A DNA stretch of 49,391 nt from Alphaproteobacteria bacterium 46_93_T64 (GTDB lineage: Bacteria; Pseudomonadota; Alphaproteobacteria; Sneathiellales; Sneathiellaceae): contig MAAN01000030.1 in assembly GCA_002163135.1 (NCBI GenBank), positions 1-49,391 of the forward strand, given 5' to 3'. How positions within the stretch are numbered: position 1 is the first letter of the stretch; the number at the start of each line of letters is the position of its first letter. Positions 1 to 47,100 of the stretch are shown here, piece by piece. The notes beneath the pieces are model-generated. The model was not told where the DNA came from. It saw nothing but the letters and a program-made list of their open reading frames with translations, and did not search any database. The position numbers and the translations under genes are program-made.

Positions 1-2613
1 ACCAACGAGAGGGATCTGAAAAAAGATCTTCCTGGTTTTGATACAGCCAGTTTAATTGGAATAAATATCGATACTTTCCATAAAGTACCCTCACATCAGA
101 GACAAATACTTGATGGTTTAGCGTCCACTACAGAAACATCGCTTGAAATTGGTGGATTGAACTTCGATTTGGTTGTTTCCCCAATTACCAACTCAAACGG
201 AGAACGTGTAGGCACTGTTGTTGAATGGGAAGATGTAACAGCTAAACTTGCTCAACAAAAAGAGGAAGAAATTCTCCTCAACACAAATTCTCGTATCAAA
301 TCTGCGTTAGATAGTTGCCAGACCAACGTCATGGTTGCCGATGCAGATTACAATGTTGTTTATGCAAACGAAACTATGATCGAAATGTTGCAAGGCAATG
401 AAGCAGATCTCAAAACAGATCTCCCTAGTTTTGTTGCAGACAAAGTCATTGGCAGCAACATTGATGTCTTCCACAAAAATCCTGCGCATCAACGGGGTAT
501 TCTTGATAACCTTAAAGAAACAACCGAAACTTCCCTTATTGTTGGTGGATTGAACTTCGACTTGGTTGTCTCCCCAATTGTTGACGAGACCGGTGAACGT
601 ATTGGTACTGTTGTTGAATGGGAAGATGTAACTGCTAAACTTGCCCAACTGGAAACAGATCAGCATCTGGCTAATGAAAATTCTCGCATCAAATCAGCAT
701 TAGATAGCTGCCGGACCAACGTCATGGTTGCCGATGCAGAATATAACGTTGTTTATACAAACGAGACCATGCTTGAGATGTTGCAAGGAAACGAAGCAGA
801 TCTTAAAACAGATCTCCCTAACTTCACTGCAAACAATGTGGTTGGCAGTAATATTGATGTCTTCCATAAAAATCCTGCACATCAACGGGGTATTCTTGAT
901 AATCTTAAAGACACAGTCGAAACTTCCCTTCTTGTTGGTGGGCTGAACTTTGACTTGGTTGTCTCCCCAATTGTTGGCACGGATGGTGAACGTATTGGTA
1001 CAGTTGTCGAATGGGAAGATGTAACCGCCAAGCTTGCTCAACAGAGAGACGAGCAACGCATCGCCAATGAAAATTCCCGTATTAAATCGGCATTGGACAA
1101 TTGCACAACCAATATAATGGTGTCAGATGCCGACTACAATATCATCTATGTCAATGAAACCATGAAGGATATGCTACTCACTACCGAGCCAGATATGAAA
1201 AAAGATCTACCGCAATTCGATGCTCGTTCGATCATCGGAACAAATATCGATACATTCCACAAAAACCCAGCGCATCAACGCGGCATGCTAGATCATTTGT
1301 CAGCTGCTTTTGATACGAGCATCGTTATTGGTGGACGCTTCTACGACCTAATTGCAAGTCCTGTTCTATCAGATGATGGAGAACGCATCGGAACGGTTGT
1401 TGAATGGGCTGATGTAACTGCCGAACGAAATATTGAAAAAGAAATCGATCAAGTGGTTACAGCAGCGGTTGCTGGTGATTTTGGAACCAGACTGGATCTA
1501 GATGGAAAAGAAGGCTTTATGCGAGGTCTTTCTGAGGCCATTAACAATCTTTCTGAAACAGTTTCCAATGCGATGGAAGATGTTGGTACGTCTCTGTTAG
1601 CCTTGTCTGACGGCGATCTGACACGTCGTATAACTGCAGAATATAGCGGTGTGTTCAATGATTTGAAATCCAACGCGAATGGAACTGCAGAACAACTCAC
1701 AGATATCGTTAGTGATATTACAACGGCTGCTACCGAAGTGAATAATGCAGCTCAGGAAATTAACGAAGGAACAATGGATCTTTCGCAAAGAACTGAACAG
1801 CAAGCTTCTAATCTTGAAGAAACCGCTGCTGCAATGGAAGAAATGTCTTCCACTGTGAAACAAAACGCTGAAAATGCACAACAAGCAAACCAACTTTCTA
1901 TTTCCGCAAGAGATGTTGCGCAAAAAGGCGGTGATGTGGTCGGCGAAGTTGTCGATGCGATGAACCGAATAGAAGGTTCATCACAGAAAATTTCAGACAT
2001 CATTGGTGTTATCGACGAAATCGCTTTCCAAACAAACTTGCTGGCCCTAAATGCTGCTGTTGAAGCCGCACGAGCCGGTGATGCGGGTAAAGGGTTTGCC
2101 GTTGTTGCAGCAGAAGTTGGAACACTTGCACAGCGATCGTCTCAAGCTGCAAAAGATATCAAAGGCTTGATTAACGATAGTGGTAGCCAGGTAAAAGATG
2201 GCGTTCGCCTTGTTGGTGACGCAGGTGAGTCCCTCAACGAAATTGTGGATAGTATCAAACGCTTGAGTGATATTGTTTCCGAAATTTCTGCGGCGAGTGA
2301 TGAACAATCAACCAGTATTACAGAGATTAATCGTTCAGTTGCACAAATGGATGAAATGACGCAGCAAAACTCGGCCCTTGTTGAAGAAAATGCTGCGGCA
2401 TCACGAACACTTCAAGAGCAGTCTGAAGGAATGAAAGAACGAATTTCGTTCTTCCAACTTGAAGAGGAACTTAAATCAAAAGCTAAAGCGGCAAGCAAAA
2501 AGGCGACGTCCCCACCCGCAGCAGCTAGCAACACAAAAACTGCAAGAAAGCAAAAGCAAATGACCGCCGTCTCTGGTGGACAGGCGACTGCTGAAGACTG
2601 GAGTGAGTTCTAG
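1..2613 (+). CDS. PAS-repeat methyl-accepting chemotaxis protein (5' end outside window)
   Basis: Chemoreceptor feeding a CheA-type kinase. The frame is open from base 1, so the N-terminus lies upstream; 870 codons are visible. In order: the end of one PAS unit (codons 1-96), three complete PAS-like units starting near codons 97, 228 and 359 with an exact 131-codon period, HAMP-like helices (about 480-600, motifs [11 protein letters not shown] and DGDLTRRI), then the MCP signalling coiled coil with its hairpin tip near codons 672-700 ([21 protein letters not shown], shown in part). The last residues DWSEF fit the xWxxF CheR/CheB docking pentapeptide, after a flexible Lys/Ala/Thr-rich tail. 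No membrane segment is visible, so the shown part is cytoplasmic; a membrane anchor upstream is possible. cheR follows directly. Family call is certain, ligand unknown. Confidence 0.95.
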
Positions 2614-2625
2614 GTTTAATGAAGC

Positions 2626-2653
2626 CCCCCATCCCAATTTTCTGGGATGGGGG
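2626..2653 (+). promoter_or_regulatory. Perfect 11-bp hairpin between the MCP gene and cheR
   Basis: CCCCCATCCCA (2626-2636) pairs perfectly with TGGGATGGGGG (2643-2653) across a 6-base loop. No T-run follows, so it is a poor intrinsic terminator. It lies between the MCP stop and the likely cheR start at 2671, and it covers the alternative ATG at 2647 and the only G-rich Shine-Dalgarno-like stretch there. It could stabilise the upstream mRNA, attenuate, or limit cheR translation. The hairpin is seen directly; its role is inference. Confidence 0.6.
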
Positions 2654-2670
2654 AACCATTGAGAATTGAC

Positions 2671-3546
2671 ATGACTCGATCTAATGAAACACAAGATAGG
2701 CAGCGAGAATTCGCATTATCGAATAAAGAATTCGAAAAATTGACTGGCCTTGTGCATTCCTTGACAGGAATTGTGTTAGGCGAACATAAAAAGGACATGC
2801 TGTATTCGCGGCTAGCAAGGCGATTGAGAGATCTCGGCCTACAATCCTTCAATCAATATTGCGCATTACTGGATTCCCAACAAGCTGCAAAAGAAACTGG
2901 CTTTTTAGTCAATGCCATTACAACAAACCTGACCAAGCTTTACCGTGAAAGTCATCACTTTGACTCGTTAGCATCGTATCTACAGACTATTCAAAAGGAT
3001 AAATATCGGAAAACTGGAGACAAGACCGTTTTAATATGGTCGGCAGGATGTTCTTCGGGAGAAGAGCCTTACTCAATTGCAACTACTATTCTGTCAAAAG
3101 CACCTTTGCTTAGCAATTGGAATGTAAAAATTTTGGCCACAGATCTCGATACAAACATGTTGGCCAAGGGGAGAGAGGGCGTCTACCCCTTATCCTCTCT
3201 CGATAGCTTACCGTATGGGTATAAAACTGCAATTAAGGACAATATCCAAACAAAAGATACAGAAATAAAATTTCGAGATAGAGCGAAATCACTCATACAT
3301 TTCAAGCAGTTAAATCTACTTCATGAATGGCCAATGAAACACAAATTTGACATCATATTTTGCCGCAATGTTTTAATTTATTTTGATGCTGAAACAAAAG
3401 ACAATCTGGTCCAGCGTTTCACCGAAAACCTGCGTCCAGATGGCATGCTTTTTCTAGGGCATTCGGAAAGCCTTATGCACAAACCTGAAGAAATAAAACT
3501 TATTGGAAAGACTACGTATGTAAAGGAGAGCCTTTCTGATGGTTGA
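2671..3546 (+). CDS. cheR: Chemotaxis protein methyltransferase CheR
   Basis: SAM-dependent methyltransferase that methylates glutamates on chemoreceptor signalling helices. 291 residues from ATG 2671. The N-terminal CheR helical domain (about 16-100) contains TKLYRESHHFD, where many CheRs have T-x-F-F-R. The Rossmann domain has the SAM loop IWSAGCSSGEEPYS (122-135), the acidic motif ATDLDTNML and FCRNVLIYFD (229-238). Length is normal. Start choice: an in-frame ATG at 2647 sits inside the 2626-2653 hairpin with no ribosome site before it, and TTG 2659 follows GGGGGA closely; ATG 2671 has a weak GAG 7-8 bases upstream. Which start is used is uncertain. No tetratricopeptide extension is present. 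The upstream MCP ends in a CheR tether motif, so that receptor is the likely substrate. Overlaps cheD by 8 bases. Confidence 0.95.
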   Translation: MTRSNETQDRQREFALSNKEFEKLTGLVHSLTGIVLGEHKKDMLYSRLARRLRDLGLQSFNQYCALLDSQQAAKETGFLVNAITTNLTKLYRESHHFDSLASYLQTIQKDKYRKTGDKTVLIWSAGCSSGEEPYSIATTILSKAPLLSNWNVKILATDLDTNMLAKGREGVYPLSSLDSLPYGYKTAIKDNIQTKDTEIKFRDRAKSLIHFKQLNLLHEWPMKHKFDIIFCRNVLIYFDAETKDNLVQRFTENLRPDGMLFLGHSESLMHKPEEIKLIGKTTYVKESLSDG

Positions 3547-4189
3547 TACCCCTTCTGATATTTGTGATCGACGTCAAAAATCGATTTTGGATCCCGCACT
3601 TGATCAGGGTCGTAAGCGCTATTTTGATGCCAAACATAACCATGAAGTGGTTCGCGTTCAACCTGGTGATCACTACGTCTCAGTCCATGAAAACGAAATG
3701 ATCGTGACAGTCCTTGGTTCTTGTGTTGCTGCATGTATACGTGACCCAAAAACCGGAATTGGTGGCATGAACCACTTTATGCTTCCAGAAAGTGAAACCG
3801 GTAATTGGGGCTCTGTAAGTGCCACCATGAGGTATGGAAATTTTGCTATGGAAACATTGATAAATGAAATCCAGAGAACAGGGTGCCCTCGCGAAAGACT
3901 AGAAATCAAGTTGTTTGGTGGCGGTAACGTTACTCCAGGTCGCGTTCAAGTGGGCGATATGAACGGTCAGTTCGCCCTTAACTATCTCAAATACGAAGGG
4001 CTGCCACTCACGGCCTGTGACCTTGGGGGTAAAGATCCAAGACGCATTCATTTTTTCCCAAAAACCGGAAAAGTTGATCGCCTTCTTTTGAAACGGCAAA
4101 ACGACTCTAAATATCTTGAAGAAGAAAACGGCTACCGATCTCAACTATCTCAGAAGATTAAAAAGGTCGGCGAAATCGATCTATTCTAG
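3539..4189 (+). CDS. cheD: Chemoreceptor glutamine deamidase CheD
   Basis: Deamidates receptor glutamines to methylatable glutamates and in some systems binds CheC. 216 residues, slightly longer than usual because of a 35-residue N-terminal extension. The catalytic set is visible in the expected spacing: Thr57 (TVLGSC), Cys62 and His79 (GIGGMNHFMLP), followed by a FGGGNV glycine-rich segment. AAGGAG lies about 11 bases before the ATG, inside the cheR end, so translation is probably coupled. CheC is absent from the window, so CheD may act only as a deamidase here. Confidence 0.95.
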   Translation: MVDTPSDICDRRQKSILDPALDQGRKRYFDAKHNHEVVRVQPGDHYVSVHENEMIVTVLGSCVAACIRDPKTGIGGMNHFMLPESETGNWGSVSATMRYGNFAMETLINEIQRTGCPRERLEIKLFGGGNVTPGRVQVGDMNGQFALNYLKYEGLPLTACDLGGKDPRRIHFFPKTGKVDRLLLKRQNDSKYLEEENGYRSQLSQKIKKVGEIDLF

Positions 4190-4198
4190 GAAAACGCC

Positions 4199-5266
4199 AT
4201 GTTGAACAAGAAAATTACAGTTCTAATAGTAGATGACAGTGCCTTGATACGTCAAATGCTGACGAGCATGTTGAGTTCAGATCCTGGTATTGAAGTTGTT
4301 GGTGCGGCACCGGATCCCGTAACCGCACGGAATATGATAAAGCAACTTAATCCAGATGTTTTAACGCTGGATATAGAAATGCCAAAAATGGATGGCATTA
4401 CCTTTTTGGAAAAGATCATAACGCTGCGCCCAATGCCGGTTGTTATGATCTCGTCTTTAACACAAGAAGGGGCAAGCGTAGCGCTTCAAGCTCTTGAGAT
4501 TGGAGCTGTTGACTATATAGCAAAACCAACTAATGATCTCCAAGCTGGTTTAGAAGGTAAAACGGCTGAAATTATTTCCAAAGTCAAAATTGCGTCGCGA
4601 GCCAAAGTAAGTGCGCGATCGCGAGAACGCCCTGTAAAACAAAATAATATTTCGTATAGTTCCTACAAAACAACCGAACAAGTTATTCTCATCGGTGCTT
4701 CAACTGGTGGCGTTGAAGCTCTTCGCGAAATTATTACGGCCCTTCCACCAAATAGTCCCGCTGCTCTTGTAACGCAGCATATGCCGGGAACATTTACCTC
4801 TTCTTTCGCGGATAGGCTAAACGGTATTTCCAAAGTTACTGTTATGGAGGCCTCCGCAAATCAGCGCGTTTTACCGGGTCATGTATATATAGCACCTGGA
4901 GGTCGTCATTTAGAGCTCGCACGTTCAGGAGCCAACTACATATGCCATCTAAGGGATGGTGAAACTGTGAGCGGTCATAAGCCTTCGGTGAATGTACTCT
5001 TTGAGTCTGCAGCCAAAGTAGCTGGTGAAAATGCCATAGGTGTAATTTTAACAGGCATGGGCCGAGATGGCGCAGAAGGGCTTTTGTCCATGCGACAAGC
5101 CGGCGCACGGACCATAGGACAGGATGAAAATTCATCTGTCGTATATGGCATGCCTAAAGCTGCCTTTGAACTTGGTGCTGTAAAGAGCCAATACCCTCTT
5201 ACAAACATCGCATCCGCGATTTTTAGCAGCCTGGAAAAACAGGATATGAAAGCGATCCGAATATGA
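4199..5266 (+). CDS. cheB: Chemotaxis response regulator methylesterase/deamidase CheB
   Basis: Two-domain enzyme that removes receptor methyl groups when phosphorylated. The receiver domain (1-120) has the acidic pair in [10 protein letters not shown], phosphoacceptor Asp58 in [12 protein letters not shown] and the switch lysine in YIAKP (109). The C-terminal methylesterase domain (about 160-350) has the full catalytic triad: Ser168 (IGASTGG), His194 (TQHMPG) and Asp290 (GMGRDGAEG). Length 355 is typical. AGGA precedes ATG 4199 and begins at the cheD stop. The stop TGA overlaps the next ATG as ATGA at 5263-5266. CheA, its usual phosphodonor, is not in the window. Confidence 0.96.
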
Positions 5267-6522
5267 CAGATATCGCAAATCAGACATATCAAGAAACAGA
5301 AAGCCAGACGCTGAATGGTCTCACACCAGAAACCAGTGAAAGCACTCCATTTTCAGAAATCCCTCAAGAGGAAATTTCTGAAAAATTGGGAGTTGAGGGC
5401 CAGTTTCAACCATCGGCTGATGTTCTTAAAGAAGTGATGGAAAACGCGAGTGATCCTGAGCTCGCGCATGAGTTTCTAAATAAATGGCTAGGTCTTTCCG
5501 AAACTCAACAGAAAGCAATGTCAATTATTATAAACGAAATAGAACTGGTTTCGGAACTTGTCGAAACAAATGTCAGTGATATTTCTCATAAATTTCAAGA
5601 ATTAGCTAAACATAGCCAAAATCAAAGTGACCAGGTAAGCACGCTGGCCGATGCGGCGCAAAACGTTATGTATCAAGGTAAATCGATGGATCTCTCCCAG
5701 ATCATGAACACCATCGATGGTCACTTGTCTACGATGATAGATAAAATCGTGGAAAGTTCAAAACATGGTGTCGAAGTCGTTTACGCCTTGGATGATGTGA
5801 CAAAAGACGTCGTAAAAGTTGAAAATCTGATTGGAGAAATCGAAGCAATTAACAAACAAACTAACATGCTTGCTTTAAATGCCCGAATAGAAGCTGCGCG
5901 GGCTGGCACTGCTGGTGATGGATTTGCCGTGGTCGCTCATGAAGTTCAGGAACTGGCAAAAACCATAAATGAGCTGGCCTGGACGATGAGGGAAGAAGTT
6001 ACAAGTGTTGTAAATGGTGTTCGGCTTGGGAACACCAAAATCAAAGAAGTAGCAAATGTAGATCTCACCGATAATATTCTCGTTAAAGACACCATCAGAG
6101 AGCTAATGGATTGTATATTAAACCAAAATGATATTTACAGCGACGCACTTCGCTCTTCTAAAGAAACTTCACAAGATATTACAAAAGATATTTACAGCGT
6201 GATCACGCGGCTGCAATTCCAGGACCGAGCTAAGCAACGACTGGAGAACATTGTGTCCACTCTTCAAGTCATGGAAGAAAGCGTCACATCATTTTCAACT
6301 GAAACACGTTCAACATTCGAGACAAGTCTTACAGGTAGAACCAACGAAGAAGACTGGTTTAAAGCTGTGATTAAAGACTTAACCCTTGGTGAAATGCGCG
6401 GGCGCTTTCTAAAGGCTGTTTTTGGTGAAGAGGATGCGTTTACTGAAGAAACAGAAAACACCGTTCCACAATCATCATCGACCGATTTTGAATATGATGA
6501 TGACAGTATTGAATTGTTCTAG
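5263..6522 (+). CDS. Soluble MCP-like signalling protein with a CheZ-like FQDxxxQ motif
   Basis: 419 residues with no signal peptide or membrane helix. The first ~60 residues are acidic and Pro/Ser/Thr-rich, then long helices. Residues about 185-250 are recognisable MCP hairpin core ([20 protein letters not shown], then [14 protein letters not shown]), so it probably packs with receptors or CheA/CheW. Past the core, [14 protein letters not shown] (317-330) resembles the catalytic helix of CheZ phosphatase, whose Asp and Gln are spaced D-x-x-x-Q; here Asp321 and Gln325. The protein is shorter than a normal receptor and lacks a sensor domain. It may be an array-associated adaptor or a phosphatase of a CheY-type regulator; the MCP part is solid, the phosphatase part is inference. 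Starts at the ATGA shared with cheB. Confidence 0.8.
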
Positions 6523-6534
6523 AAGGGAAAAAAG

Positions 6535-6840
6535 ATGAAAGACAGTGTCACCACTACCGATAGTAGCTTGACCATCTCATTATCGGAAAAGCTCACTTTT
6601 GAAGATCATACGAACTTTCGAGAACTCTTAAAATTGATAAATAATGATATTCATCGGAACTGCAGCATAGACCTCCGAGGTTTAGAAGCTATTGATTCAG
6701 CTGGTCTTGGAATGTTGATGATTGCATTTGAAACTGCTGAGAAGTTCGGGATGAGTTTTAATCTCTACAAGCCAGTAGGTCAGGTCAAAAGGCTTTTAGA
6801 AATTTCTGATTTCGAAAAAGTTATGAGTATTGTTTCATGA
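6535..6840 (+). CDS. STAS-domain anti-sigma factor antagonist-like protein (RsbV-like)
   Basis: 101-residue single STAS domain. SIDLRGLEAIDSAGLGML holds the conserved phosphorylatable serine (Ser55 in DSAG), and the C-terminal helix KPVGQVKRLLEISDF is typical. Proteins of this family switch partners according to serine phosphorylation by an HATPase kinase and dephosphorylation by a PP2C phosphatase; both enzymes follow in the operon (8081-8998 and 6859-8100). Preceded by AGAAGGGA at a good distance. The target is not visible in the window: it could be a sigma factor, a diguanylate cyclase or the receptor array. Function class is sure, output unknown. Confidence 0.92.
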   Translation: MKDSVTTTDSSLTISLSEKLTFEDHTNFRELLKLINNDIHRNCSIDLRGLEAIDSAGLGMLMIAFETAEKFGMSFNLYKPVGQVKRLLEISDFEKVMSIVS

Positions 6841-6858
6841 ACAGCAGGTTAGATTAGT

Positions 6859-8100
6859 ATGAACGATCTAAATATTATTAAAAAAGAAAAACCGGAAATT
6901 CCTTACAGCGAGGATTCCGACGCTATTTTCAATTCCAAAATATTGGTTGTGGATGACTCGGCGCTTATAAGGGAGCTGTTCGGGGCCTATCTAACTCAAG
7001 CGGGTTATACGGACATACAGTATGCGGAGAACGGCCAACATGCTCTGGATATCATTGACGAAAACATTCCAGATTTGGTTATTTTAGATCTCGAAATGCC
7101 CATAATGGGCGGTTTTGAAGTTTGCAGGATATTGAAATCCAATCCAGAAACCAAACACCTGCCGATCCTCATCCAAAGCGGGCGCGACACGGCATCAGAC
7201 TTAACAAAAGCGTTTAGTCATGGTGCGAGTGATATGGTCCTTAAACCCATCAAAAGATATGAAATACTAGCCCGTGTAAAAGTACATTTAGAAAACCGAA
7301 TTCTTGTATCAAAATTAACAGACTACCACGATCGAGTTGCGAGCGAACTTGAACAAGCTAGGCAGATACAACTTGATATATGTCCGTCAAAACATGAGTT
7401 GAAAAACTACTTACAAGCCTATGGCTTAGATATAGGCTGGCATTACGAACCTTCCTCTGAAATTGGGGGTGATATAGGTGGAATTCTACCCATTGATGAA
7501 ACGAGAATTGCATTCTATATCGCAGATTTCTCTGGTCATGGTGTTGCGGCAGCACTGAATACATTCCGTTTACAAACCTGGCTGACATCCGCCTCTGAAT
7601 TGTATTCATCTCCCGATGAGCTTCTGACCAAGTTAAATAGCTTTCTGCATAACAACCTGTCGTCAGGCTCATATGCAACAATGCTTTTCTTTTGCCTGGA
7701 TATTGAAAAACAGGAACTTACGTATTCGGCCGCAGGAAGCCAGCCTCCCCTCTTACAGGGATCTGACGGTTCAAAAGAGTTTGAGTTATTAAGCTCCAAA
7801 GGAATGCCGTTGGGATTACGTCCTCACTGGGATTACGAAAATATTAAGTTTCCCTTTGAAAAAAACACCAAAATTCTCATATACAGCGACGCACTCGTGG
7901 AAGTGGAGGTTGAGGAGAATACGTATTTAGGGGAAGAAGGACTCAGAAAAGAAGTCTCTGATCTTTGGCACGAAGAGAAATCAACGGAAGACAAAATTTC
8001 TCAACTTGTCGCAAATTTTCATCAGAGAATGGATCCTGATAATTCGGATGATCTAACCATAATATGTTTGGAAAACGTAAATGAACTACGAAGCTCATAA
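6859..8100 (+). CDS. Response regulator with PP2C-type (SpoIIE/RsbU) serine phosphatase output
   Basis: 413 residues. The receiver domain (about 26-145) has [11 protein letters not shown], phosphoacceptor Asp77 (VILDLEMP) and Lys129 (LKP). After a coiled linker (150-175) comes the PP2C SpoIIE-type domain with metal-binding aspartates in IGGDIGG (Asp205), IADFSGHG (Asp223) and the C-terminal NSDDLTI. By analogy with RsbU, HsbR and SypE it should remove phosphate from the STAS serine (Ser55 of the preceding gene) when its receiver is phosphorylated, perhaps by the hybrid kinase at 9002-12730. The ribosome site is weak (GCAGG). The gene end overlaps the next gene by 20 bases. Confidence 0.93.
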   Translation: MNDLNIIKKEKPEIPYSEDSDAIFNSKILVVDDSALIRELFGAYLTQAGYTDIQYAENGQHALDIIDENIPDLVILDLEMPIMGGFEVCRILKSNPETKHLPILIQSGRDTASDLTKAFSHGASDMVLKPIKRYEILARVKVHLENRILVSKLTDYHDRVASELEQARQIQLDICPSKHELKNYLQAYGLDIGWHYEPSSEIGGDIGGILPIDETRIAFYIADFSGHGVAAALNTFRLQTWLTSASELYSSPDELLTKLNSFLHNNLSSGSYATMLFFCLDIEKQELTYSAAGSQPPLLQGSDGSKEFELLSSKGMPLGLRPHWDYENIKFPFEKNTKILIYSDALVEVEVEENTYLGEEGLRKEVSDLWHEEKSTEDKISQLVANFHQRMDPDNSDDLTIICLENVNELRSS

Positions 8101-8998
8101 TAGAACATGTGTCATATTGTTGGGCAGTCAAAAGGGCGTGCTGGCCGACATGAAGATGTTAAATTCATCTGATCCCGACATACAATTATTTTCACCTGAA
8201 GAATGGTTAAAGGATATAGATCATCAAACTCGTGAAGTTGCTGTATTTGTTGCAAATTTGACCGAACTAGATGGTAAGCAACAAAAAACGATACTAGATA
8301 TTTGTCAGTTGGCCCAGTTCACTTGGTCAGAACTCATCTTACTTTATGATCTTAATGACTGTCCAAATATGTTACCAGAAGTCGTCGCACGCGCGAGCAC
8401 TCTAACTTCAAGCTCAAAAAACCCTAACCAACTCTTTGAAATCATTACAACCTCTAAACGCAATTACCAACAAAAAGCCGCCATTAGAAAAGATCTTAAT
8501 AATACACTTAATGCGTTCAAACTTATGGATAAAGGCGTCTTTAAGTTGAAGACCTTAGACGAAGCAAAGTCTATTTCTATACTTCTCGCGACACTATGCC
8601 CGGACAGCGCTGAGCTCTCCATGGGATTATTAGAGCTTTTAATCAATGCTATTGAACACGGAAACTTGGAAATCACTTTTGATGAAAAAGGGAAACTCCT
8701 ACAAAATGGACAATGGCTTCAGGAAATTGAGAGGCGTCAGCAGTTGCCACAAAATTCCGAAAAACAGGTAACCATTGAGTATGTACATAAGCCCGATAGA
8801 ATTGAGTTTACAATTACAGATGAAGGATCAGGTTTCAATCCTGAGAAATTCTTAACCGATGAGATGAACAACCCGATAGAGTCCAATCCCACATGTTTTC
8901 ATGGAAGAGGAATAAAATTGGCGTCGAGAATGTACTTTGATCAGTTGGAATATGTAGGAGTTGGTAAGCAGGTAAAAGCCGCAATCGAATTGAGGTGA
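8081..8998 (+). CDS. HATPase-domain serine kinase (RsbW-like) with an unassigned N-terminal domain
   Basis: 305 residues. The C-terminal half is a GHKL ATPase: N-box ELLINAIEHGN (185-195), G1 box DEGSGFNP and G2 motif HGRGI, with no His-phosphoacceptor domain, as in RsbW/SpoIIAB kinases that phosphorylate STAS proteins. There is a longer insert than usual between N-box and G1 (about 196-245, charged). Residues 8-125 are not recognised; alternating hydrophobic strands (VILLG, VAVFVANL, ELILLYD) could be a degenerate receiver-like fold, but no phosphoacceptor is evident. It overlaps the phosphatase gene, so it is co-translated with its presumed antagonist. Start choice: ATG 8081 is the only early ATG. 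Confidence 0.88.
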   Translation: MNYEAHNRTCVILLGSQKGVLADMKMLNSSDPDIQLFSPEEWLKDIDHQTREVAVFVANLTELDGKQQKTILDICQLAQFTWSELILLYDLNDCPNMLPEVVARASTLTSSSKNPNQLFEIITTSKRNYQQKAAIRKDLNNTLNAFKLMDKGVFKLKTLDEAKSISILLATLCPDSAELSMGLLELLINAIEHGNLEITFDEKGKLLQNGQWLQEIERRQQLPQNSEKQVTIEYVHKPDRIEFTITDEGSGFNPEKFLTDEMNNPIESNPTCFHGRGIKLASRMYFDQLEYVGVGKQVKAAIELR

Positions 8999-9001
8999 AA
9001 A

Positions 9002-12000
9002 TTGCATATCGCAGATTTTGGTGGAACTAACAAACTGGCAGTTATTTTATCGGATGTTAAAAGCCTCCATAAAATTGGTGTGTTATTTGCCCAATATCTG
9101 CTAGTTGGATTGTGTATCACTTCAGTATACTACGTTATTCACCTTGTTAATTGGCCAAATACGCGTGCATTTATACTCGCGACTTCAACCCTCTCCATAT
9201 TTGTGAGCACGTTAGCAACAGCAGCGTTTCTAATTTTTTATTATTTTAAACGAGAAAGACTATTTCTTGTCATCGCACTTACAACCGTCGGCTGCACGGT
9301 GTTTGTTCTCAATGATGTAATACCCAGTCTCTATTCACCGCAATTAGAGATGGGGCATCAGGGCCATATCCCAGAGAAACATGATCATAACAATCACATG
9401 TCCCATTTATTTTTAGGACTGATGATGGCCTTCGGATATTTTCAAGAAAAAATTAGTGATCGGTATAGTGAAAAAGACAAAATAAATATCATTATCCTAG
9501 CTTCCAGTATTTTTTTTCTACTAACTATAATAGAACAATCTTTTATAGAAAACACCTCGAGCCATCACCTTGCAGAAATAGTATCCGGGATCACAACATT
9601 TACGACACTAATAATACTATCGGTGGCATTCTTCTGTTTCCTGTTCAAAGGTGATAATGGCCCACAAACAGTTGGATTTTGGTTGGTTTTCTATATTGCT
9701 GCCAACTTTTATCTTCACATACCAAGTTTCGAGCAGTTTTTTAAAGTTCCCCCAATCAGCGCAACCAAGTCCGGATTATATTCCATCAGTACGTATTTGA
9801 TTCTGTTAAGTGGCCTGATCTACAATTCCTTGTGGATAATTTCGAAAGAAACTGAGACACGCAGAAACCTTACGAAGCAAAATAAAGCAATTGAATTGCT
9901 GTATATGGGAGGCATGATAATTGCTGATTCCGAAGACTTTGAAACGGCAACATCTCAGTGTCTTGAAAGATTGGTTGATTTTGGTCACTGGGAATTGGCG
10001 CACGCATATTTTATAGACAATAATGATGACAGCTTTCAGCATTATTGGTGCGGAGAAAGACATGAAGAATGTCAAGATTTCAAGGCTATTACAATGCAGC
10101 TTGGAATTGATTATGGCGTCGGATTTTCTGGAAAAGTCTGGGAACGAAAAAAACATCTAAAGATAAAAAATATTGAGCGCAGTAGCGATTTTTTACGTAA
10201 AAAGCACGCCTTGGAAGCCGGTTTACATTCCGCACTTGCATTCCCAATTACGCATGAAAATAAACTTGTCGCACTCCTAGAGCTATACTCAACAAAGGAT
10301 GATGCGATCGATGAGGGCTTTACATCGGCAACTAATAATTTGTGCCACCAATTGGAAAACCTTTACGCAAAAGAACAAAGAATTTACAAACTTGTCGCAA
10401 GAGAAAAACTTTTAAATGAACTTTTTGACAGCTTTCCTAGTGGAATGGCTACATTTGACGAACATGATCACCTTGCCATCTTCAATCAAAGATTTGTCGA
10501 GGCAAATTCCCTCTACGGCCTAGAAATCCATAAAAATATGGACTTCCATGACTGGGTAACGACGATAGCTTATAGTGGTCACATCGAAGAAGCATTTGGT
10601 CGTGAACAAGAGTGGATTGAGCAACAACTAGCCATGCACAAATATGGCTATAAAAGTCAAGATCGGAAACTAACCGACGGCTCCTATTTACGGTTTAGTG
10701 AAATTCCGCTGGAATCGAGCGGAACAGTTTGCATTTGGACAGATGTGACCGAAATCAAACGCAACAAAATCAAAAAGAACTATATGTTTGAAATGTTAAA
10801 AACGTCACTAACGAGTTTTCCAGGTGGTGTTTGTATATTCGATGCTTCGTTGAAAATTGTAACCTATAATAATGCAATGATAAAATTACTTGCCCTGTCC
10901 TCGCTGGATATCACCGAGGGTGCGAGCTTCAGCGATTTTTTAGATGTATTTCGAAGAAATCAAAACATCTACAATGAATTCATAACTCAGCTTTCAAGTC
11001 TACACGCCAAAGTCGCAAAAACAGGAAAACCCCAATCTGATCCATCTATAATAATAGACGATAAAGTATTCATGTTGCACATGAACCCTCTAAAGACGGG
11101 GGGGTTTGTCTTAATTCTCACTGACATTACGAATACACAAAACTCACAAGTTCACTTTGTGAATGAGTTCGATCCGGCAGAAATTTCCATTCAAGCGAAA
11201 TCAGAAATTTTTTCTGAACTTGGTCATGATTTAAGAACACCGCTGAACGGGGTCTTAACATCGTTAGAGCTACTTCGGGATACGAAAATTTCTTCTAATC
11301 AATCTAAACACATAGAAACTATTAGTAATTCCGCTCTGTCTCTGATGAAAATACTTAATGACAATCAAGATCTTTCAAAAATTAAAGCAGGCGAATTGGT
11401 TCTGGATCTCGCTCCGGTATGTACAAACGATATAGTTCACTATTTACAAAACATCTGTACATATCAAGCTGGGGTTAAAGGTATAACATTTTCCGTAAAC
11501 CGAAACATTGACCTCATCGACGTCATTAATTGCGACTTTGATAAGCTATTACGTATTCTCACAAATCTTGTCGATAATGCTGTTAAAAACACATCTGAAG
11601 GAGTTGTATCAGTTTCGATTTCTCAATTAGATGCAAAGAAAACCAAAGATGAGTATACGAAGTTGAGGTTTGAAATCACAGATACAGGAAATGGTTTAAG
11701 TAAGGCGCATTATGAAATTTTGACAGAAGATCATTTGCATTTAAACAGGTCGTTGACGTTATCAGATGGAGGGTCCGGGGTAGGCTTAAAACTTGCGAAA
11801 AATCTTGTAGACCTGATGGGAGGCCTCATAAAAATCAACAATGATAGTATATCAGGGACCGCAATTTCTTTTGACCTGAAAGTTGGTGTATCGAATTGGA
11901 AAGCGCTGGAAAAAGCAGGAACTCGATTTACATCGAAAACCAGTGAAGAGTTCGAAAGTGATCCTCTGTATATCCTGGTAGCTGAAGATCATCCCATTAG

Positions 12001-12730
12001 TCAGACCGTTCTGAAAGAACTGTTGACGAGGTGGGGACATGAAATAACTATTGTTGAAAATGGAGAACAAGCAGTAGCAGCTGTTGCAACCTGTAAATAT
12101 GATTTAGTTCTAATGGATATTCAGATGCCGGAAATGGATGGATATACAGCTGCACTGGAAATCCGAAAACTTCCTGGTCGGGTGAAAGACATTCCCATAA
12201 TTGCCCTAACAGCCAATGCTATGTACGGTGAGCGAAAACGCTGTCTGGATGCAGGGATGAATGAATATCTCTCAAAACCAGTTGTAAAATGGCAGTTGGC
12301 GGAATCTCTTTATAAATTTGGCAAGAATAGAACAGACCCAGAAAGCTATCATAAAGCGGATACTCAACAAACAAAGACCTCTCCAGACAGGGAAATCAAT
12401 TTGGAAGCCATACAGGAAATGACGGATACTTTCGGCCCTGATGCCGTTAAAGATCTCGCATACAAAATGATGTCTCAGTATGATGAGCACCGTCAGAGAA
12501 TTACCGAATACATGCAAAAAGAAAAATGGCACGAAATTGGCCGGGAGGCACATATGCTTAAAAGCTGCTTTGCACAATTTGGCTTACAAAATGCTTCTGT
12601 GGAAGCCGCAAAAATTGACGTTTTTTGCAAGCAAAACGATCTCGATAAAATTATGGAAACCACTCCGGCAATGCTGGATAGATGCGACGATGCCATTGCT
12701 GAATTAAAATCCCAATTTATCAATCTTTAA
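9002..12730 (+). CDS. Membrane hybrid histidine kinase with GAF, PAS, receiver and HPt domains
   Basis: 1242 residues. About eight hydrophobic segments (20-285) form an unassigned membrane sensor, with a His-rich loop near residues 117-137. Then a GAF-like domain (about 300-460), two PAS-like domains (about 470-590 and 600-715), HisKA with His742 (ELGHDLRTPLNG), HATPase_c (NLVDNAVKNTSEG, then DGGSGVGLKLAKNL), a receiver with Asp1039 (LVLMDIQMPEMDG) and LTANAM, and a C-terminal HPt with His1184 (EAHMLKSCFAQFG). All phosphorelay residues are present. The start codon is TTG, well placed after GAGGTGA; no better in-frame start precedes it. Last gene of the operon; the likely phosphodonor for the receiver-PP2C protein or for the orphan HPt/receiver proteins nearby (inference). 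Confidence 0.93.
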   Translation: MHIADFGGTNKLAVILSDVKSLHKIGVLFAQYLLVGLCITSVYYVIHLVNWPNTRAFILATSTLSIFVSTLATAAFLIFYYFKRERLFLVIALTTVGCTVFVLNDVIPSLYSPQLEMGHQGHIPEKHDHNNHMSHLFLGLMMAFGYFQEKISDRYSEKDKINIIILASSIFFLLTIIEQSFIENTSSHHLAEIVSGITTFTTLIILSVAFFCFLFKGDNGPQTVGFWLVFYIAANFYLHIPSFEQFFKVPPISATKSGLYSISTYLILLSGLIYNSLWIISKETETRRNLTKQNKAIELLYMGGMIIADSEDFETATSQCLERLVDFGHWELAHAYFIDNNDDSFQHYWCGERHEECQDFKAITMQLGIDYGVGFSGKVWERKKHLKIKNIERSSDFLRKKHALEAGLHSALAFPITHENKLVALLELYSTKDDAIDEGFTSATNNLCHQLENLYAKEQRIYKLVAREKLLNELFDSFPSGMATFDEHDHLAIFNQRFVEANSLYGLEIHKNMDFHDWVTTIAYSGHIEEAFGREQEWIEQQLAMHKYGYKSQDRKLTDGSYLRFSEIPLESSGTVCIWTDVTEIKRNKIKKNYMFEMLKTSLTSFPGGVCIFDASLKIVTYNNAMIKLLALSSLDITEGASFSDFLDVFRRNQNIYNEFITQLSSLHAKVAKTGKPQSDPSIIIDDKVFMLHMNPLKTGGFVLILTDITNTQNSQVHFVNEFDPAEISIQAKSEIFSELGHDLRTPLNGVLTSLELLRDTKISSNQSKHIETISNSALSLMKILNDNQDLSKIKAGELVLDLAPVCTNDIVHYLQNICTYQAGVKGITFSVNRNIDLIDVINCDFDKLLRILTNLVDNAVKNTSEGVVSVSISQLDAKKTKDEYTKLRFEITDTGNGLSKAHYEILTEDHLHLNRSLTLSDGGSGVGLKLAKNLVDLMGGLIKINNDSISGTAISFDLKVGVSNWKALEKAGTRFTSKTSEEFESDPLYILVAEDHPISQTVLKELLTRWGHEITIVENGEQAVAAVATCKYDLVLMDIQMPEMDGYTAALEIRKLPGRVKDIPIIALTANAMYGERKRCLDAGMNEYLSKPVVKWQLAESLYKFGKNRTDPESYHKADTQQTKTSPDREINLEAIQEMTDTFGPDAVKDLAYKMMSQYDEHRQRITEYMQKEKWHEIGREAHMLKSCFAQFGLQNASVEAAKIDVFCKQNDLDKIMETTPAMLDRCDDAIAELKSQFINL

Positions 12731-12812
12731 ATTTAACAAACAATTTCCTTGTTATGGCGGCTGCTAAATTGCAAAGTCATTTTTCTTAACTTTCCCAGAT
12801 AAAGAGAGAACA

Positions 12813-13628
12813 ATGAAATCAGGTTTTGCTGATCTTGCTACCCATAAAATTTTCTACAAAATTAGGGGCGAAGGCTCCAGATTATTGATCATCACAGGGA
12901 CTAATTCGGATACACGCCATACGCCGACGATATACGATGCACCAGGGTCTGGTGCGTTTGAATTATTGAATTTTGATCATCGCGGAATGGGACAATCGTC
13001 AACACCAGATGCCCCCCTCACGATGCAATGCTACGCAGATGATATCGCCAAATTACTCGATGTTGTAGGATGGGAAAAAACTGCGGTCATAGGTGTCAGT
13101 TTTGGCGGTATGGTTGCCCAGCATTTTGCTTTATCTTATCCTGAAAAAGTCAACAAACTGATCCTTTGTTGTGCAAGCAGCGGTGGCGAAGGTGGATCCT
13201 CCTACCCTCTTGAAACATTGGTCGATTACACAGCAGAAGAATATGCATCTTTCATTATGAAACAAATGAACTTGAAACATAATGACGACTGGCAGGCAGA
13301 CCATCCAAAGCTTGCGAAACGGATCTACGATTATTACTTTCAAGGCGCAAATGCCAGTTATAACAACCCCGATAAATATGCTGCGATGAAGGAACAATTT
13401 GCGGCACGCGCGGACCATGATGTCTATGACAGATTAAAAACGCTGAATATACCAACGCTTGTTGCCTGCGGGGAGCTAGATGGTGTTGCCCCCCCTGAAA
13501 ATTCAAAAGCAATGGCAGGTGTTATTCCTAACTCGCGACTTGAGACTTTTAAAGGCGGCCATCTATTTTTAAAAGAAGACGCCAAGGCCTGGCCAGTCTT
13601 ATTCGACTTCCTCAAGTCTCCCCATTAG
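12813..13628 (+). CDS. Alpha/beta-fold hydrolase
   Basis: 271 residues, a complete alpha/beta hydrolase. Nucleophile elbow GVSFGGM with Ser96, an early oxyanion HRGMGQS, a late acid in CGELDGVAPP and catalytic His in FKGGHLF. Related to 3-oxoadipate enol-lactonase-like and other small-molecule hydrolases, but the substrate cannot be read from sequence. No signal peptide, so cytoplasmic. AGAGAGAAC precedes the ATG. It is 82 bases after the signalling operon and 38 bases before the sulfatase gene, which it probably shares a transcript with. Confidence 0.9.
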   Translation: MKSGFADLATHKIFYKIRGEGSRLLIITGTNSDTRHTPTIYDAPGSGAFELLNFDHRGMGQSSTPDAPLTMQCYADDIAKLLDVVGWEKTAVIGVSFGGMVAQHFALSYPEKVNKLILCCASSGGEGGSSYPLETLVDYTAEEYASFIMKQMNLKHNDDWQADHPKLAKRIYDYYFQGANASYNNPDKYAAMKEQFAARADHDVYDRLKTLNIPTLVACGELDGVAPPENSKAMAGVIPNSRLETFKGGHLFLKEDAKAWPVLFDFLKSPH

Positions 13629-13666
13629 ATTAATGTGAAACCATTATCTATTTCAGAGGTTCATAA

Positions 13667-15241
13667 ATGACTGCAATTCGTAACGTTCTTTTCATCATGT
13701 GTGACCAGTTACGCGCAGATTACCTTGGATGTACCGGCCACCCGACAATCAAGACCCCTAACATCGACAAACTGGCGACCCGTGGCGTTAATTTTTCACG
13801 CACCTTTGTTCAAGCACCAGTTTGTGGCTCTTCCAGAATGTCATTTTATACTGGTCGCTATATGTTTACTCACGGAGCAACTTATAACGGAGTTCCGCTA
13901 AACATTGGTCAACCGACATTGGGCGACCATCTTCGAGAGCTCGGTGTTAAAACCGGCCTTATCGGTAAAACGCATATGGCTGCAGATCGCGCTAATATGG
14001 AACGCCTCGGGATCGATCCTCTCTCCAAAGCTGGTGTGCTTGCAAGCCAGTGCGGGTTCGAACCATGGGAGCGTGATGATGGCTTACACCCTGATCAGCT
14101 TACAGGTCCAAACCTGAGTTATAATCAGTATTTGCAGTCAAAAGGATATGACGGGGATAATCCTTGGCATACTGCCGCGAACTCTGGATATGACGAAAAC
14201 GGCGATTTACAAAGTGGATGGTATTTACGCAATGCACATCTACCTGCCGCGATCGACAAGGATCACTCAGAAACCGCCTATATGACAGATCGAGCTATCG
14301 AAAGAATGTCAGAGTTGGGGGATCAACAATGGTGCTTGCATCTTAGTTATATAAAACCTCACTGGCCGTATATTGCACCAGCCCCCTATCACAATATGTA
14401 TTCGGACGAGGATGTTTTGCCAGCCAATCGAGCCACTGCGGAAAAGGAGAAACCGCATCCTGTAGTGGAAGCTTTTATGCAGCATGAAGAAAGTAAAAAT
14501 TTTTCCGATGAAGAAAAACGTAGGCACGTTATCCCCGCATATATGGGGTTGATCAGCGAAGTAGATCATCATATCGGACGTTTAATGGAATTCCTTGAAG
14601 ACGCTGGAAAATTGAAAGAGACCCTTATTGTCTTTACCAGTGACCACGGGGATTACCTCGGTGATCACTGGCTTGGTGAAAAGGAATTATTTCACGAAGA
14701 AAGCGTTCGTATTCCAATGATTGTCGTCGACCCATCCAGTGCAGCTGATAGTACTCGGGGAACTGTTAGTGATCAGTTGATAGAGGCTATCGATCTTGTC
14801 CCGACCTTTATTGACGCCTTAGGCGGCGACGAAAAACCCCACTTACTTGAGGGCCGCTCCTTGATCCCTCTCCTTCAGAATAAAATGAATATTAGCTGGC
14901 GTGATACGGTCTATAGTGAAGTCGATTATGCATGGCGCGGTGCCCGACTTTCTCTTGACCTGCCACCAGATCGTACAAGGGGCTATATGCTCCGTACCGA
15001 CAGTTGGAAATACGTCTCCTTTGACGGATTTAATCCCCAGCTATTTGACCTTAAAAATGATCCAAAAGAACTTAATGATCTGGGCCAAAGTAATGAACAT
15101 GCAGATCTTCGTATTGGTTTTGAGGACAAGTTGCATCACTGGATCCGTATGAGAAAAACACGCTACACTATTTCCCTAAAGGAAATTGAAACAAGAACTG
15201 ATAATGCAAAAGAGCGCGGTATATACTTTGGTGTTTGGTAG
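13667..15241 (+). CDS. Sulfatase-superfamily hydrolase, phosphonate monoester hydrolase-like
   Basis: 524 residues, full-length alkaline-phosphatase/sulfatase fold. Metal ligands: Asp13 (MCDQLRADY) and the TSDHGDYLGD motif. The nucleophile region is VCGSSR, with Cys53 at the formylglycine position but Ser in place of the usual Pro/Ala of C-x-P/A-x-R. The DQ after the first strand, the HPPF-like KPHWPYIAPAPYH segment and the overall pattern match rhizobial/Burkholderia phosphonate monoester hydrolases better than choline sulfatase; the preferred leaving group (sulfate or phosphonate/phosphate ester) is not decidable here. No signal peptide, so cytoplasmic. AGAGG ribosome site 8 bases before ATG. 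Neighbouring hydrolase (12813) may act on the same compound. Confidence 0.9.
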   Translation: MTAIRNVLFIMCDQLRADYLGCTGHPTIKTPNIDKLATRGVNFSRTFVQAPVCGSSRMSFYTGRYMFTHGATYNGVPLNIGQPTLGDHLRELGVKTGLIGKTHMAADRANMERLGIDPLSKAGVLASQCGFEPWERDDGLHPDQLTGPNLSYNQYLQSKGYDGDNPWHTAANSGYDENGDLQSGWYLRNAHLPAAIDKDHSETAYMTDRAIERMSELGDQQWCLHLSYIKPHWPYIAPAPYHNMYSDEDVLPANRATAEKEKPHPVVEAFMQHEESKNFSDEEKRRHVIPAYMGLISEVDHHIGRLMEFLEDAGKLKETLIVFTSDHGDYLGDHWLGEKELFHEESVRIPMIVVDPSSAADSTRGTVSDQLIEAIDLVPTFIDALGGDEKPHLLEGRSLIPLLQNKMNISWRDTVYSEVDYAWRGARLSLDLPPDRTRGYMLRTDSWKYVSFDGFNPQLFDLKNDPKELNDLGQSNEHADLRIGFEDKLHHWIRMRKTRYTISLKEIETRTDNAKERGIYFGVW

Positions 15242-44195: not shown

Positions 44196-47100
44196 TTAAC
44201 TTTCGTCACCGATGTTGATGCCCATGTTCAATAGCTGATTGGATGTCAGGTCGCCGTTATGATCTCCAAGATCAACACTATCCAAAGTGACTGAGAAGTT
44301 CGCAACATTATTAATTGTGATTGTCGTACTCGACCCGTTATCAATCAAATTCACGTCAGCGGCACGATCTTCATCAGCGATCCCGAGATTTTCAAACAAA
44401 GTGTGCAAATCAATCTGATCACCTTCTGAAGCATCAAATCCAATGATCGTGTCATCGCCGTCAGCGGCGCTTGTATAATCGAACCGATCTGCATGATCAC
44501 CACCGGTCATCGTATCGTCACCAGTGCCACCGGCAAAGTAGTTGTCACCGTTACCGCCAAACATAATATCATCTCCGCCATTGCCGTAGAAGATATCATC
44601 AACATCACTGCCCGTCAGGGTATCGCCGGATCCACTACCATCATGAGTTTGGCTCATATAGGAGCTGTCCTCGGCCACATTCACTGTCAATGTCGCAGTA
44701 ACTTCGTCACCGCTAATATCAGTCAATGTATAGGTAAAGGTTTCTTCCTGCATGCCGGTGATGCCGCTAGGTGCTGTATAGGTATATTCCCCATGCTCAT
44801 CAATTTCGAACGTACCACCTAGCGCCGTGGTAAAGCTGATCTGCCCCATACCAACAGTATGCGGCGATCCGTCGTGGGAAACTGACGTTAGCAGGGTCCC
44901 GTACTCTACAAAATCGGTATCGCCCCAAGTGTGGCTGCTGCCTGGATCATTCATAGGATCGTCCAAGACATTACCGGAGACTTCTTCTGTTGATGGAATA
45001 GCTCCGAATTTAGTAATGTTGTCAACAAACAAGTCTGAATCATTGCTTTTTGAATTAACATTTACGACGCCAATGAATAATGTATAGCTGCCGGACGAGA
45101 CCGGAGACAGACTTTTAGTCCCTCCACCATCGTTATTTCCATTCTGAGCGGTTGCAAGAATGCCTTGTTCGACAATTGTCCCACCACTCTTCAATACATA
45201 GAAAGCGGCATCTGGAGCAGAGTTTCCTCCTTTTTCATCGAAATACCAATCAAAAGAAATTACATCACCATCTACGGCAGTAATCGCTTTGGAAATAGCA
45301 GAACCTTCGCGTGGATCGCTAATGCCAAGTTCTGATCCAAAATAATTGGTGGTTCCAATGAATGATTCCAAATTACCAATATTCGATCCATCAGCTTGAA
45401 TTTTGACGGATTTACTGCCCTCCGTATCATGGCTGTTGCTTAACCCAACTTTACCTTGTTCATCAAATCCGCTTTCATTCTCAAAACCTTCGAGAAGTGA
45501 CGTCCCCTGAGTTGATCCACTCTGCTCCACATAAGCAAGGTTATCGTACGCCGAAGGTGCATTGGCAGTGACTGTTACGTCAACATCGATGCTCCCCATT
45601 GCTTGATCTCCGTCATCATCCTCAATCACATAGGTGATCGTTGTATCGATAGACGGCGAACCGGAGGCAACACCAATCTGATAATCACCTGTGGCAAAAT
45701 CGAACGTGAAGGTATGTCCGCCGCTGGTGATCTCCAACACAGAGCCTGTAGCGTCTGTATAAGTGCTTCCAAATGCAGTGACCGATACAATTCCGCCTGC
45801 GCCATCGGCGCCGTATGTTCCAGCTGCGGTTCCATCAAAGATGTTGCCAGATACGGCTTCAGCAATTGTTCCAGCCAATGTTTCAGTTAAGTCACTTGGA
45901 TTATCCACCACAAGAATATTGGCAGAAGAAGATCCAGCATCATCTGGGTCATACGAGACACCTTGTAAGAAACTATTGCCAATTGGATTAGAAATATCTC
46001 CACCGATGACTACAGCGTAAGATTCCACTTCGTTAGTGGATACAAAATTCTGCCAGTCGCTGCTATTGAAAGAATCTACGTTGTGATACCCATCAGACAA
46101 GAAATACGCCAGTTTCTGAGTATTCTCTGACTGATCGTCTAACAACATAGGGGCCATACCATCTTCAAGGGCGGCGACACCGTCTTTATAATCTGTGCTA
46201 TCGGAAATGCCTTGGCTACTTGCCCAACTACTGCCCGCATCATCAATGGTTCCAACTGCGGCCGTAAATGACGATAGATCAGTATATGTTCCAAGAATAT
46301 GACTGCCATCTGCAAAGACGGACAGGGATATGGCCACATCATCACCAGCAGCAAACAAGTCTGCGGCAAGGTCGATTGCAGATGCGGTCGCAGTCTCTAA
46401 TCGCGTATCATCACTGTTATTGACTGAACCATCACCATTGCTGTCATGACGCGTATTCATACTGGTTGAAATATCGACACATATTGCAACACTGTAATCC
46501 AGCAAGGCAATATCGCCCGTGAATGATTGATCGCCGGCATCAGGTCCATCATCTTCGACGCTAACGGTAACCTCTCCTTGGTAACCGTCAGATTGATAGT
46601 TAAACGTCAATTCCAGAACATCAATAGCACCAGTTTCATTTTCATCCGGATGATCGATAGGCCCAAGTTGGGTGTATTCATAAGCGCCCGTTGCTGTATC
46701 CGTCATGGTCAGTTCAAATACAGGATCGCCCCCAACTGAACCGGTGAGCGTTAAACCATCCACACTAACTGTAATATTAATCGGTTGACCACCGGATGTG
46801 AGAGGAACAGCCGCTCCTCCCTCTGCATCGACAGTTACTGCAGTTGTAGACCATTCAAATCCAATTGCCGCACCCTGATCAAAATTCAGACTGCTTGTAT
46901 CTGTCTCATCTGGATCGGTAGGCGTTGAACCCGGACTGAAATCACCATTTTCATCAATCGCGGCTTCTTCAACGGCAAGCGTTCCGTCGCGTGTGTAGAA
47001 ATCATCGCTAATAATATCAACGCTCACAGTGTCATCGGTAATCGTGGCTGTTCCCGTTGTTATCGTCGGATTTATCAATGTAACAACAATTGTTTCGATA

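Follow-up and report, generated by a model that had tools for sequence, protein, structure and literature searches.

The window, that is, the whole stretch of DNA analysed here, is the entire contig C2 (MAAN01000030.1, 49,391 nucleotides) of the draft genome of Alphaproteobacteria bacterium 46_93_T64, and it opens with a row of genes that appears to be the larger part of a chemosensory operon carrying its own partner switch. An earlier note, made from the letters of the window, had described nine plus-strand genes separated by overlaps or short gaps. All nine were found, at intergenic distances of -20 to +33 bp, and only the receptor gene is truncated, by the start of the contig. The features are given below with two that lie on another contig, C39; the name McpZ is coined here.

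L062:142-441 (contig C39), STAS1, first gene of the operon
L062:3646-4656 (contig C39), front of the chemoreceptor (TM-CHASE3-TM-HAMP-PAS, where TM is a transmembrane segment)
1..2613, plus strand, C-terminal part of the chemoreceptor: PAS repeats, HAMP, MCPsignal; tail DWSEF
2647..3546, plus strand, CheR methyltransferase (Pfam PF01739, 2e-59)
3539..4189, plus strand, CheD deamidase (PF03975, 8e-27); C-terminal tail EIDLF
4199..5266, plus strand, CheB methylesterase with receiver (PF01339, PF00072)
5263..6522, plus strand, McpZ, a soluble MCP-hairpin protein (PF00015, 6e-23); QFQDRAKQ at residues 318-325, tail IELF
6535..6840, plus strand, STAS2, of the anti-sigma-antagonist type (PF01740/PF13466); putative phosphorylatable Ser55 in DSAGLG (position counted by eye)
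6859..8100, plus strand, receiver-PP2C (SpoIIE) phosphatase, 413 residues (PF00072; PF07228, 2e-40)
8081..8998, plus strand, HATPase/GHKL kinase, LvrC-like, with a decayed N-terminal receiver, 305 residues (PF13581; AlphaFold2 model, Foldseek and profile search)
9002..12730, plus strand, membrane hybrid histidine kinase: transmembrane segments, GAF, two PAS, HisKA, HATPase, receiver, Hpt

The note had advised looking upstream of base 1 for CheA, CheW and CheY, and all three lie on C39 (4658 bases), whose last 113 bases are identical to the first 113 of C2. C39 carries, on a single strand, STAS1, CheY, CheA (713 residues; its domains are Hpt, dimer, ATPase and CheW), CheW and the 5' part of the receptor gene. 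Put together from both contigs, the receptor has the architecture TM-CHASE3-TM, HAMP, PAS repeats, HAMP and MCP domain and ends in DWSEF, a tail that we take to resemble a CheR/CheB docking tail. The join is independently supported by three genomes of the genus (G041, G168 and G265), in which the gene order from STAS1 onward is uninterrupted. The free end of C39 in turn matches the start of contig C14 over 107 bases, in the correct orientation. Given the end overlap and the gene content of C39, the row is, as predicted from these contigs, a 13-gene chemosensory operon that includes its own CheA kinase. The note's description of a tight row joining receptor adaptation to a switch of the RsbV/RsbU/RsbW type is likewise borne out by gene content and spacing.

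Flagellar genes lie next to a different chemosensory cluster of the same genome: CheA (935 residues)-CheW-CheY-CheB-CheR adjoins FHIPEP (FlhA), an SRP54-type GTPase (FlhF-like) and an ATPase of the type III secretion/flagellar type. In pairwise comparison, the CheA of the operon is 42% identical to Escherichia coli CheA and 33% to its flagellar counterpart in the same genome. We consider it probable that the 13 genes specify a second and complete chemosensory array that is distinct from the flagellar array and has the partner switch as its main output, this degree of confidence applying to the explanation as a whole.

The cluster recurs well beyond this genome, as relatives of the receiver-PP2C protein collected in two samples show. 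At a threshold of E 1e-40, 39 of 289 genomes of the class (source genome included) hold such a relative; 23 stretches were fetched from this sample (three from the genus and 20 drawn from the 35 other matching genomes), and nine of them have the che-linked order. Among named relatives, of which the best 80 of 191 were taken, the cluster is present in 28 loci (hereafter the che-linked loci; L165, with a different order, is included), so the search for the same gene order that the note had proposed does find it elsewhere. Several Sneathiella records are among the best named relatives. Recurrence in both samples argues against a chance cluster. CheD, CheB and McpZ are each present in 28 of 28 che-linked loci and CheA in 22, the remaining six stretches stopping before its expected position. 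STAS2 lies directly 5' of the PP2C gene in 24, and the GHKL gene is adjacent in 25 (13 on the same strand, 12 on the opposite one), showing that the association of the switch genes outlives rearrangement. The opposite orientation in those 12 loci is what could be cited for two unrelated systems, loosely co-transcribed and functionally uncoupled. We regard such a coincidence as highly improbable: the order is conserved in records whose titles name Sneathiellales, Rhodospirillales, Rhizobiales and other groups, and gammaproteobacteria show the same order as far as the phosphatase, according to the accessible text of PMC7184735.

The same text describes the gammaproteobacterial cluster, stage-1 F7, as an anti-sigma-antagonist followed by cheY, cheA, cheW, receptor, cheR, cheD, cheB, second receptor, second antagonist and serine phosphatase. 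The operon studied here has this gene order, and its genome also holds another che system elsewhere. As far as the description in that source goes, the two differ in four respects. A single CheW, between cheA and the receptor, replaces two; the receptor is membrane-bound (two hydrophobic segments, CHASE3, PAS repeats) instead of a cytoplasmic, Aer2-like PAS-HAMP protein; McpZ is soluble and carries a CheZ-like motif, whereas McpA-like receptors have a transmembrane region (accessible part of PMC7534058); and a separate GHKL gene and a hybrid kinase come after the phosphatase. In Shewanella oneidensis, the che1 locus holds CrsR-CrsA, a partner switch that controls RpoS, as stated in the available portions of PMC9855816 and PMC6482189. 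There too a receiver-PP2C protein and a STAS antagonist with a phosphorylatable-type residue lie inside a che cluster. By contrast, receiver, PP2C and kinase/anti-sigma domain form one chain in CrsR, as the same portions have it, and two genes (413 and 305 residues) here. The stage-1 F7 order (PMC7184735) and che1 with CrsR-CrsA (PMC9855816), even as partly accessible, mean that the joining of array and switch is already published and is not, as the note had thought, unusual. Literature searches returned no study of the alphaproteobacterial version.

STAS2, the receiver-PP2C protein and the GHKL kinase have the makeup expected for the roles that RsbV, RsbU and RsbW play in partner switching. 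The motif DS[AS][GA] is kept in 25 of the 25 che-linked relatives that have STAS2. In the PP2C protein, D32, D33, D77 and K129 of the receiver are invariant in all nine aligned sequences, as are the acidic residues of the PP2C part, which we take to be catalytic. The GHKL motifs are retained in 20 of 20 aligned kinases. Gene content, gene order and conserved catalytic residues thus all stand as observations.

The third component, the GHKL kinase, departs from these known clusters. Its AlphaFold2 model (mean predicted local distance difference test score (pLDDT) 84, predicted template modelling score (pTM) 0.62) comprises a receiver fold (roughly residues 9-120) and a GHKL domain. Among solved structures, LvrC of Leptospira (9qih) matches best, with a Foldseek E of 6.6e-14 and a template modelling score of 0.43 over both domains, at a root mean square deviation of 15.9, so that the two domains are arranged differently; LvrC is also the best match by profile search (E 2.4e-16). 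LvrC is a Rec-Bergerat anti-sigma protein (9qih; PMC13269768, in its accessible part). Like it, the kinase of the operon has a receiver followed by a GHKL/Bergerat domain; unlike it, as LvrC is described in that part, it has a decayed receiver and is encoded with PP2C and STAS genes in a che operon. Indeed, in the window the receiver of the kinase has no acid pair and no Lys, and Asn59 replaces the phosphate-accepting Asp. With that receiver decayed in the source genome, phosphate should enter the switch through the PP2C receiver only.

Relatives of the kinase encoded away from che genes (no CheA cluster within the 7.6-12 kb fetched) show a different picture: 11 of 12 receivers pass a lax three-residue test. 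L130 and L199 are without a receiver and were left out of the receiver counts. These counts depend on the alignment, as the Kiloniella-like group is placed differently in one column by the two receiver alignments made; in one of the two, the Asp is kept in 7 of 19 receivers. The decay may have had a single origin, a point that the tree of the GHKL part, which is weakly resolved and needs five changes of the che label, does not decide. In the class sample, GHKL relatives occur in 18 of the 289 genomes (source genome included), with a PP2C gene adjacent or one gene off in 12, a STAS gene alone in one (G002) and neither in five. Outside CheA clusters, L193, L194, L195 and L198 hold Rec-GHKL relatives with intact receivers near histidine kinases, which are hybrids with Hpt in L193 and L198; ABC/HlyD-type export genes lie near the Rec-GHKL relatives of L191 and L193, and genes of similar size in L194.

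The note had also pointed to a CheZ-like motif in an MCP-like protein, which held up: McpZ carries QFQDRAKQ at residues 318-325, FQDxxxQ is present in 28 of 28 McpZ proteins, and QFQDR in 27 of them. Among the 23 distinct MCP frames of the genome, only McpZ carries FQDxxxQ. McpZ resembles CheZ in having this motif (whose residues we take to be the catalytic ones of CheZ) at the same spacing and in its low-confidence, probably flexible C-terminal tail. It differs in that the motif sits on an MCP-hairpin protein without a match to the Pfam CheZ model (PF04344 search of the genome and Pfam scan of the protein itself). Note that the genome holds four other CheZ places above the cut-off, one of which (C20) has an in-frame stop. 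The McpZ model is weak (pLDDT 71, pTM 0.39), the tail being of low confidence; the tail reads [IV][ED]LF in 28 of 28 proteins. CheD has a tail of like type, terminal in 21 of 28 proteins and within the last eight residues in all 28. These tails (window 3539-4189 and 5263-6522; 28 relatives) may mean that both proteins dock to one and the same product of the operon. Five McpZ proteins (L109, L119, L124, L126 and L150) are short, with 207-300 residues and no MCP domain match, and keep both motif and tail. Three of these loci (L119, L124 and L150) combine the loss of the receptor hairpin from McpZ with the absence of STAS2 and retain PP2C and GHKL genes; downstream, L119 has genes for an ODP-type metallo-hydrolase and for a stand-alone receiver protein, and genes of similar size are present in L124 and L150. 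We propose McpZ as a candidate receptor-derived, CheZ-like phosphatase.

In the mechanism that we envisage, all transfer and binding steps are modelled on CrsR-CrsA, RsbV/W and LvrC. The receptor, adapted by CheR, CheD and CheB, would control CheA, and CheA in turn would pass phosphate to CheY, to CheB and to the receiver-PP2C protein. For the last of these, a CheA donor is the simplest assumption, as the PP2C receiver is an intact inlet and CheA the conserved neighbouring kinase. The active PP2C would dephosphorylate Ser55 of STAS2, which could then bind the separate GHKL kinase and cause it to release its target. Upon loss of CheA activity, the GHKL kinase would re-phosphorylate Ser55, thereby resetting the switch. 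McpZ, docked by its IELF tail, may drain phosphate from CheY or from the PP2C receiver.

The membrane hybrid kinase had been put forward in the note as the protein that could phosphorylate the PP2C receiver. In a broader form of this idea, its Hpt would be the phosphate donor either to the receiver-PP2C, as HptB is for HsbR, or to the GHKL protein, as LvrB is for LvrC, and the array would share the transcript only in order to be co-regulated or to supply another input. The kinase does lie directly 3' of the GHKL gene, with a 3-bp gap and with an Hpt; in L193 and L198, outside che clusters, a GHKL relative has a hybrid kinase with Hpt next to it; most Sneathiella relatives retain the Asp of the kinase receiver; and by the distance rule of our script 9 of the 28 che-linked loci have a hybrid kinase downstream on the same strand, which overlaps the PP2C frame by 4 bp in L095 (L086 and L114 extend less than 1.2 kb past the PP2C gene, so a hybrid kinase could not be visible there). 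In six of these hybrid kinases that were scanned, Hpt was above the cut-off in L135, L097 and L092, below it in L095 and absent from L110 and L101. However, in Sneathiella glossodoripedis a hydrolase and a sulfatase gene, 65% and 77% identical to those found 3' of the hybrid kinase here, directly follow the GHKL gene, and a search of that genome gave no ortholog-grade match to the hybrid kinase (best 216 bits, as against 731 in S. chinensis). This absence at a syntenic site with conserved flanks indicates that the hybrid kinase is accessory or dispensable, and it was rejected as a core part. The GHKL receiver in the window, moreover, is without phosphate-accepting residues. The hybrid kinase is thus not the obvious donor, whereas CheA occurs in 22 of the 28 loci, and we judge the Hpt-fed alternative unlikely.

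STAS1 heads the operon and differs from STAS2 at the phosphorylation site, which reads Thr-Thr-Pro-Cys and not Asp-Ser-Ala-Gly in the source genome, G041, G168, G265 and L092 (Ser-Thr-Pro-Cys in L124). According to the accessible text of PMC12654446, alphaproteobacterial che clusters encode a STAS protein, CheS, that binds CheA. STAS1 is also a small STAS protein in a che operon, a likeness of context to CheS of Sinorhizobium and Agrobacterium, and by analogy we propose it as a putative CheS-like partner of CheA. The position of STAS1 and the CheA binding of CheS would also fit an output that is the array or motility itself, STAS1 and/or STAS2 binding CheA or CheY as CheS does in Sinorhizobium. 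This we hold to be very unlikely, as STAS2 retains the partner-switch Ser in every relative that has it and accompanies the PP2C gene in most loci. The array with the partner switch as its main output remains the explanation that we favour.

What the switch acts on was sought first among sigma factors, by way of PF04542 places (sigma-54 was not searched). The draft genome has seven sigma70 region-2 places: RpoD, two RpoH-type, three extracytoplasmic function-like and one without a family match at 1e-10. RpoS was not found among them, the best score with the RpoS model (298 bits, by RpoD) lying below the cut-off of 378.7; RpoS was therefore rejected as the target, unlike in Shewanella as the accessible accounts of CrsR-CrsA have it. 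Nor was there a sigma factor among 19 chosen neighbours scanned in 13 stretches around Rec-GHKL relatives, which comprised HlyD/ABC export genes, histidine kinases, Hsp90, a TonB receptor, an SMC-type protein, a peptidase and others.

A different candidate adjoins the operon. In G041, G168 and G265, the gene next to STAS1 is divergent, lies 418-465 bases away and encodes a GGDEF-match protein of 299-321 residues (L201:6703-7602, L202:4661-5608 and L203:4684-5649); the counterpart in the source genome is on C14 (L204:433-1377, 161.7 bits). On inspection by eye, none of the four proteins retains the GGDEF signature. Searches of nine other che-linked genomes (E 1e-20) gave matches in only three, of 82-103 bits and in frames of 423-432 residues, the size of an ordinary receiver-GGDEF protein found further along; the neighbour is thus a genus-level feature and a candidate partner only. 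In Pseudomonas aeruginosa, phosphorylated HsbA binds the diguanylate cyclase HsbD, as reported in the accessible part of PMC6482189. The operon likewise combines a receiver-PP2C and a STAS protein with an adjoining GGDEF-domain gene, but compared with HsbD as described there, the neighbour has lost the GGDEF signature, and a tie to STAS2 would be hypothetical. Candidate targets are a sigma factor other than RpoS or a partner of another kind, for instance the degenerate GGDEF protein.

Several observations weigh against the reading of array, switch, decayed kinase receiver and McpZ phosphatase set out above. The lax test is passed by six of the 22 kinase receivers from che-linked loci (five from Kiloniella records and one from a Rhodospirillales record; one column being alignment-dependent), so receiver decay is not general. 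The likeness of McpZ to CheZ is local only (hhalign probability 55, P 1.2e-4), and in a Foldseek search all McpZ matches with E <0.001 were chemoreceptor structures, with no CheZ among the 50 matches listed; for both reasons, McpZ was not accepted as a true CheZ. L119 and L150 (Terasakiella) and L124 (a Methylocystaceae record) keep PP2C and kinase without STAS2, so that the switch must differ there. The degenerate GGDEF neighbour is seen in the genus only. Finally, the accessible text of PMC9855816 says of Shewanella Che1 only that it 'could be involved'.

Rfam and tRNA scans gave no matches. Over window positions 1-13700, a promoter scan found 31 sites against 30.0 in shuffles, and terminator-like sites numbered 22 against 12.1, none of them within 12730-12813. 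The hydrolase and sulfatase pair that follows (window 12813-15241) is also present behind the operon, in conserved order, in L088 and L091. Both ends of contig C2 fall inside long open frames, the PAS repeats of 1-2613 and, at 44196-49391, a VWA/Ig-like protein of more than 1700 residues that runs off the end.

With the gene order already published, what is new here is a kinase that is encoded separately and has lost the key residues of its receiver, together with McpZ, a candidate receptor turned phosphatase; from the known cluster, as it appears in the accessible sources, the operon differs by the LvrC-like kinase being separate, by the motif and tail of McpZ, by an accessory hybrid kinase and by RpoS not having been found. 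A tentative scenario, which we regard as possible and somewhat doubtful, is that in Alphaproteobacteria lacking RpoS the array drives the switch; that an LvrC-like Rec-GHKL kinase lost its phosphate input after joining the operon, control moving to the CheA-fed receiver-PP2C protein; that McpZ turned from receptor to phosphatase, keeping QFQDRxxQ and the CheD-like IELF docking tail; and that the target is one not yet recognised, in Sneathiella perhaps the degenerate GGDEF neighbour. That some chemosensory arrays do not steer flagella is established; what they control instead is poorly understood. A compact, RpoS-less operon that names the array, its adaptation proteins, the phosphatase, the antagonist and the kinase makes both the link from CheA to the switch and the target testable, and the decay of the kinase receiver together with the loss of the hairpin from McpZ would predict where phosphate enters and where it leaves.

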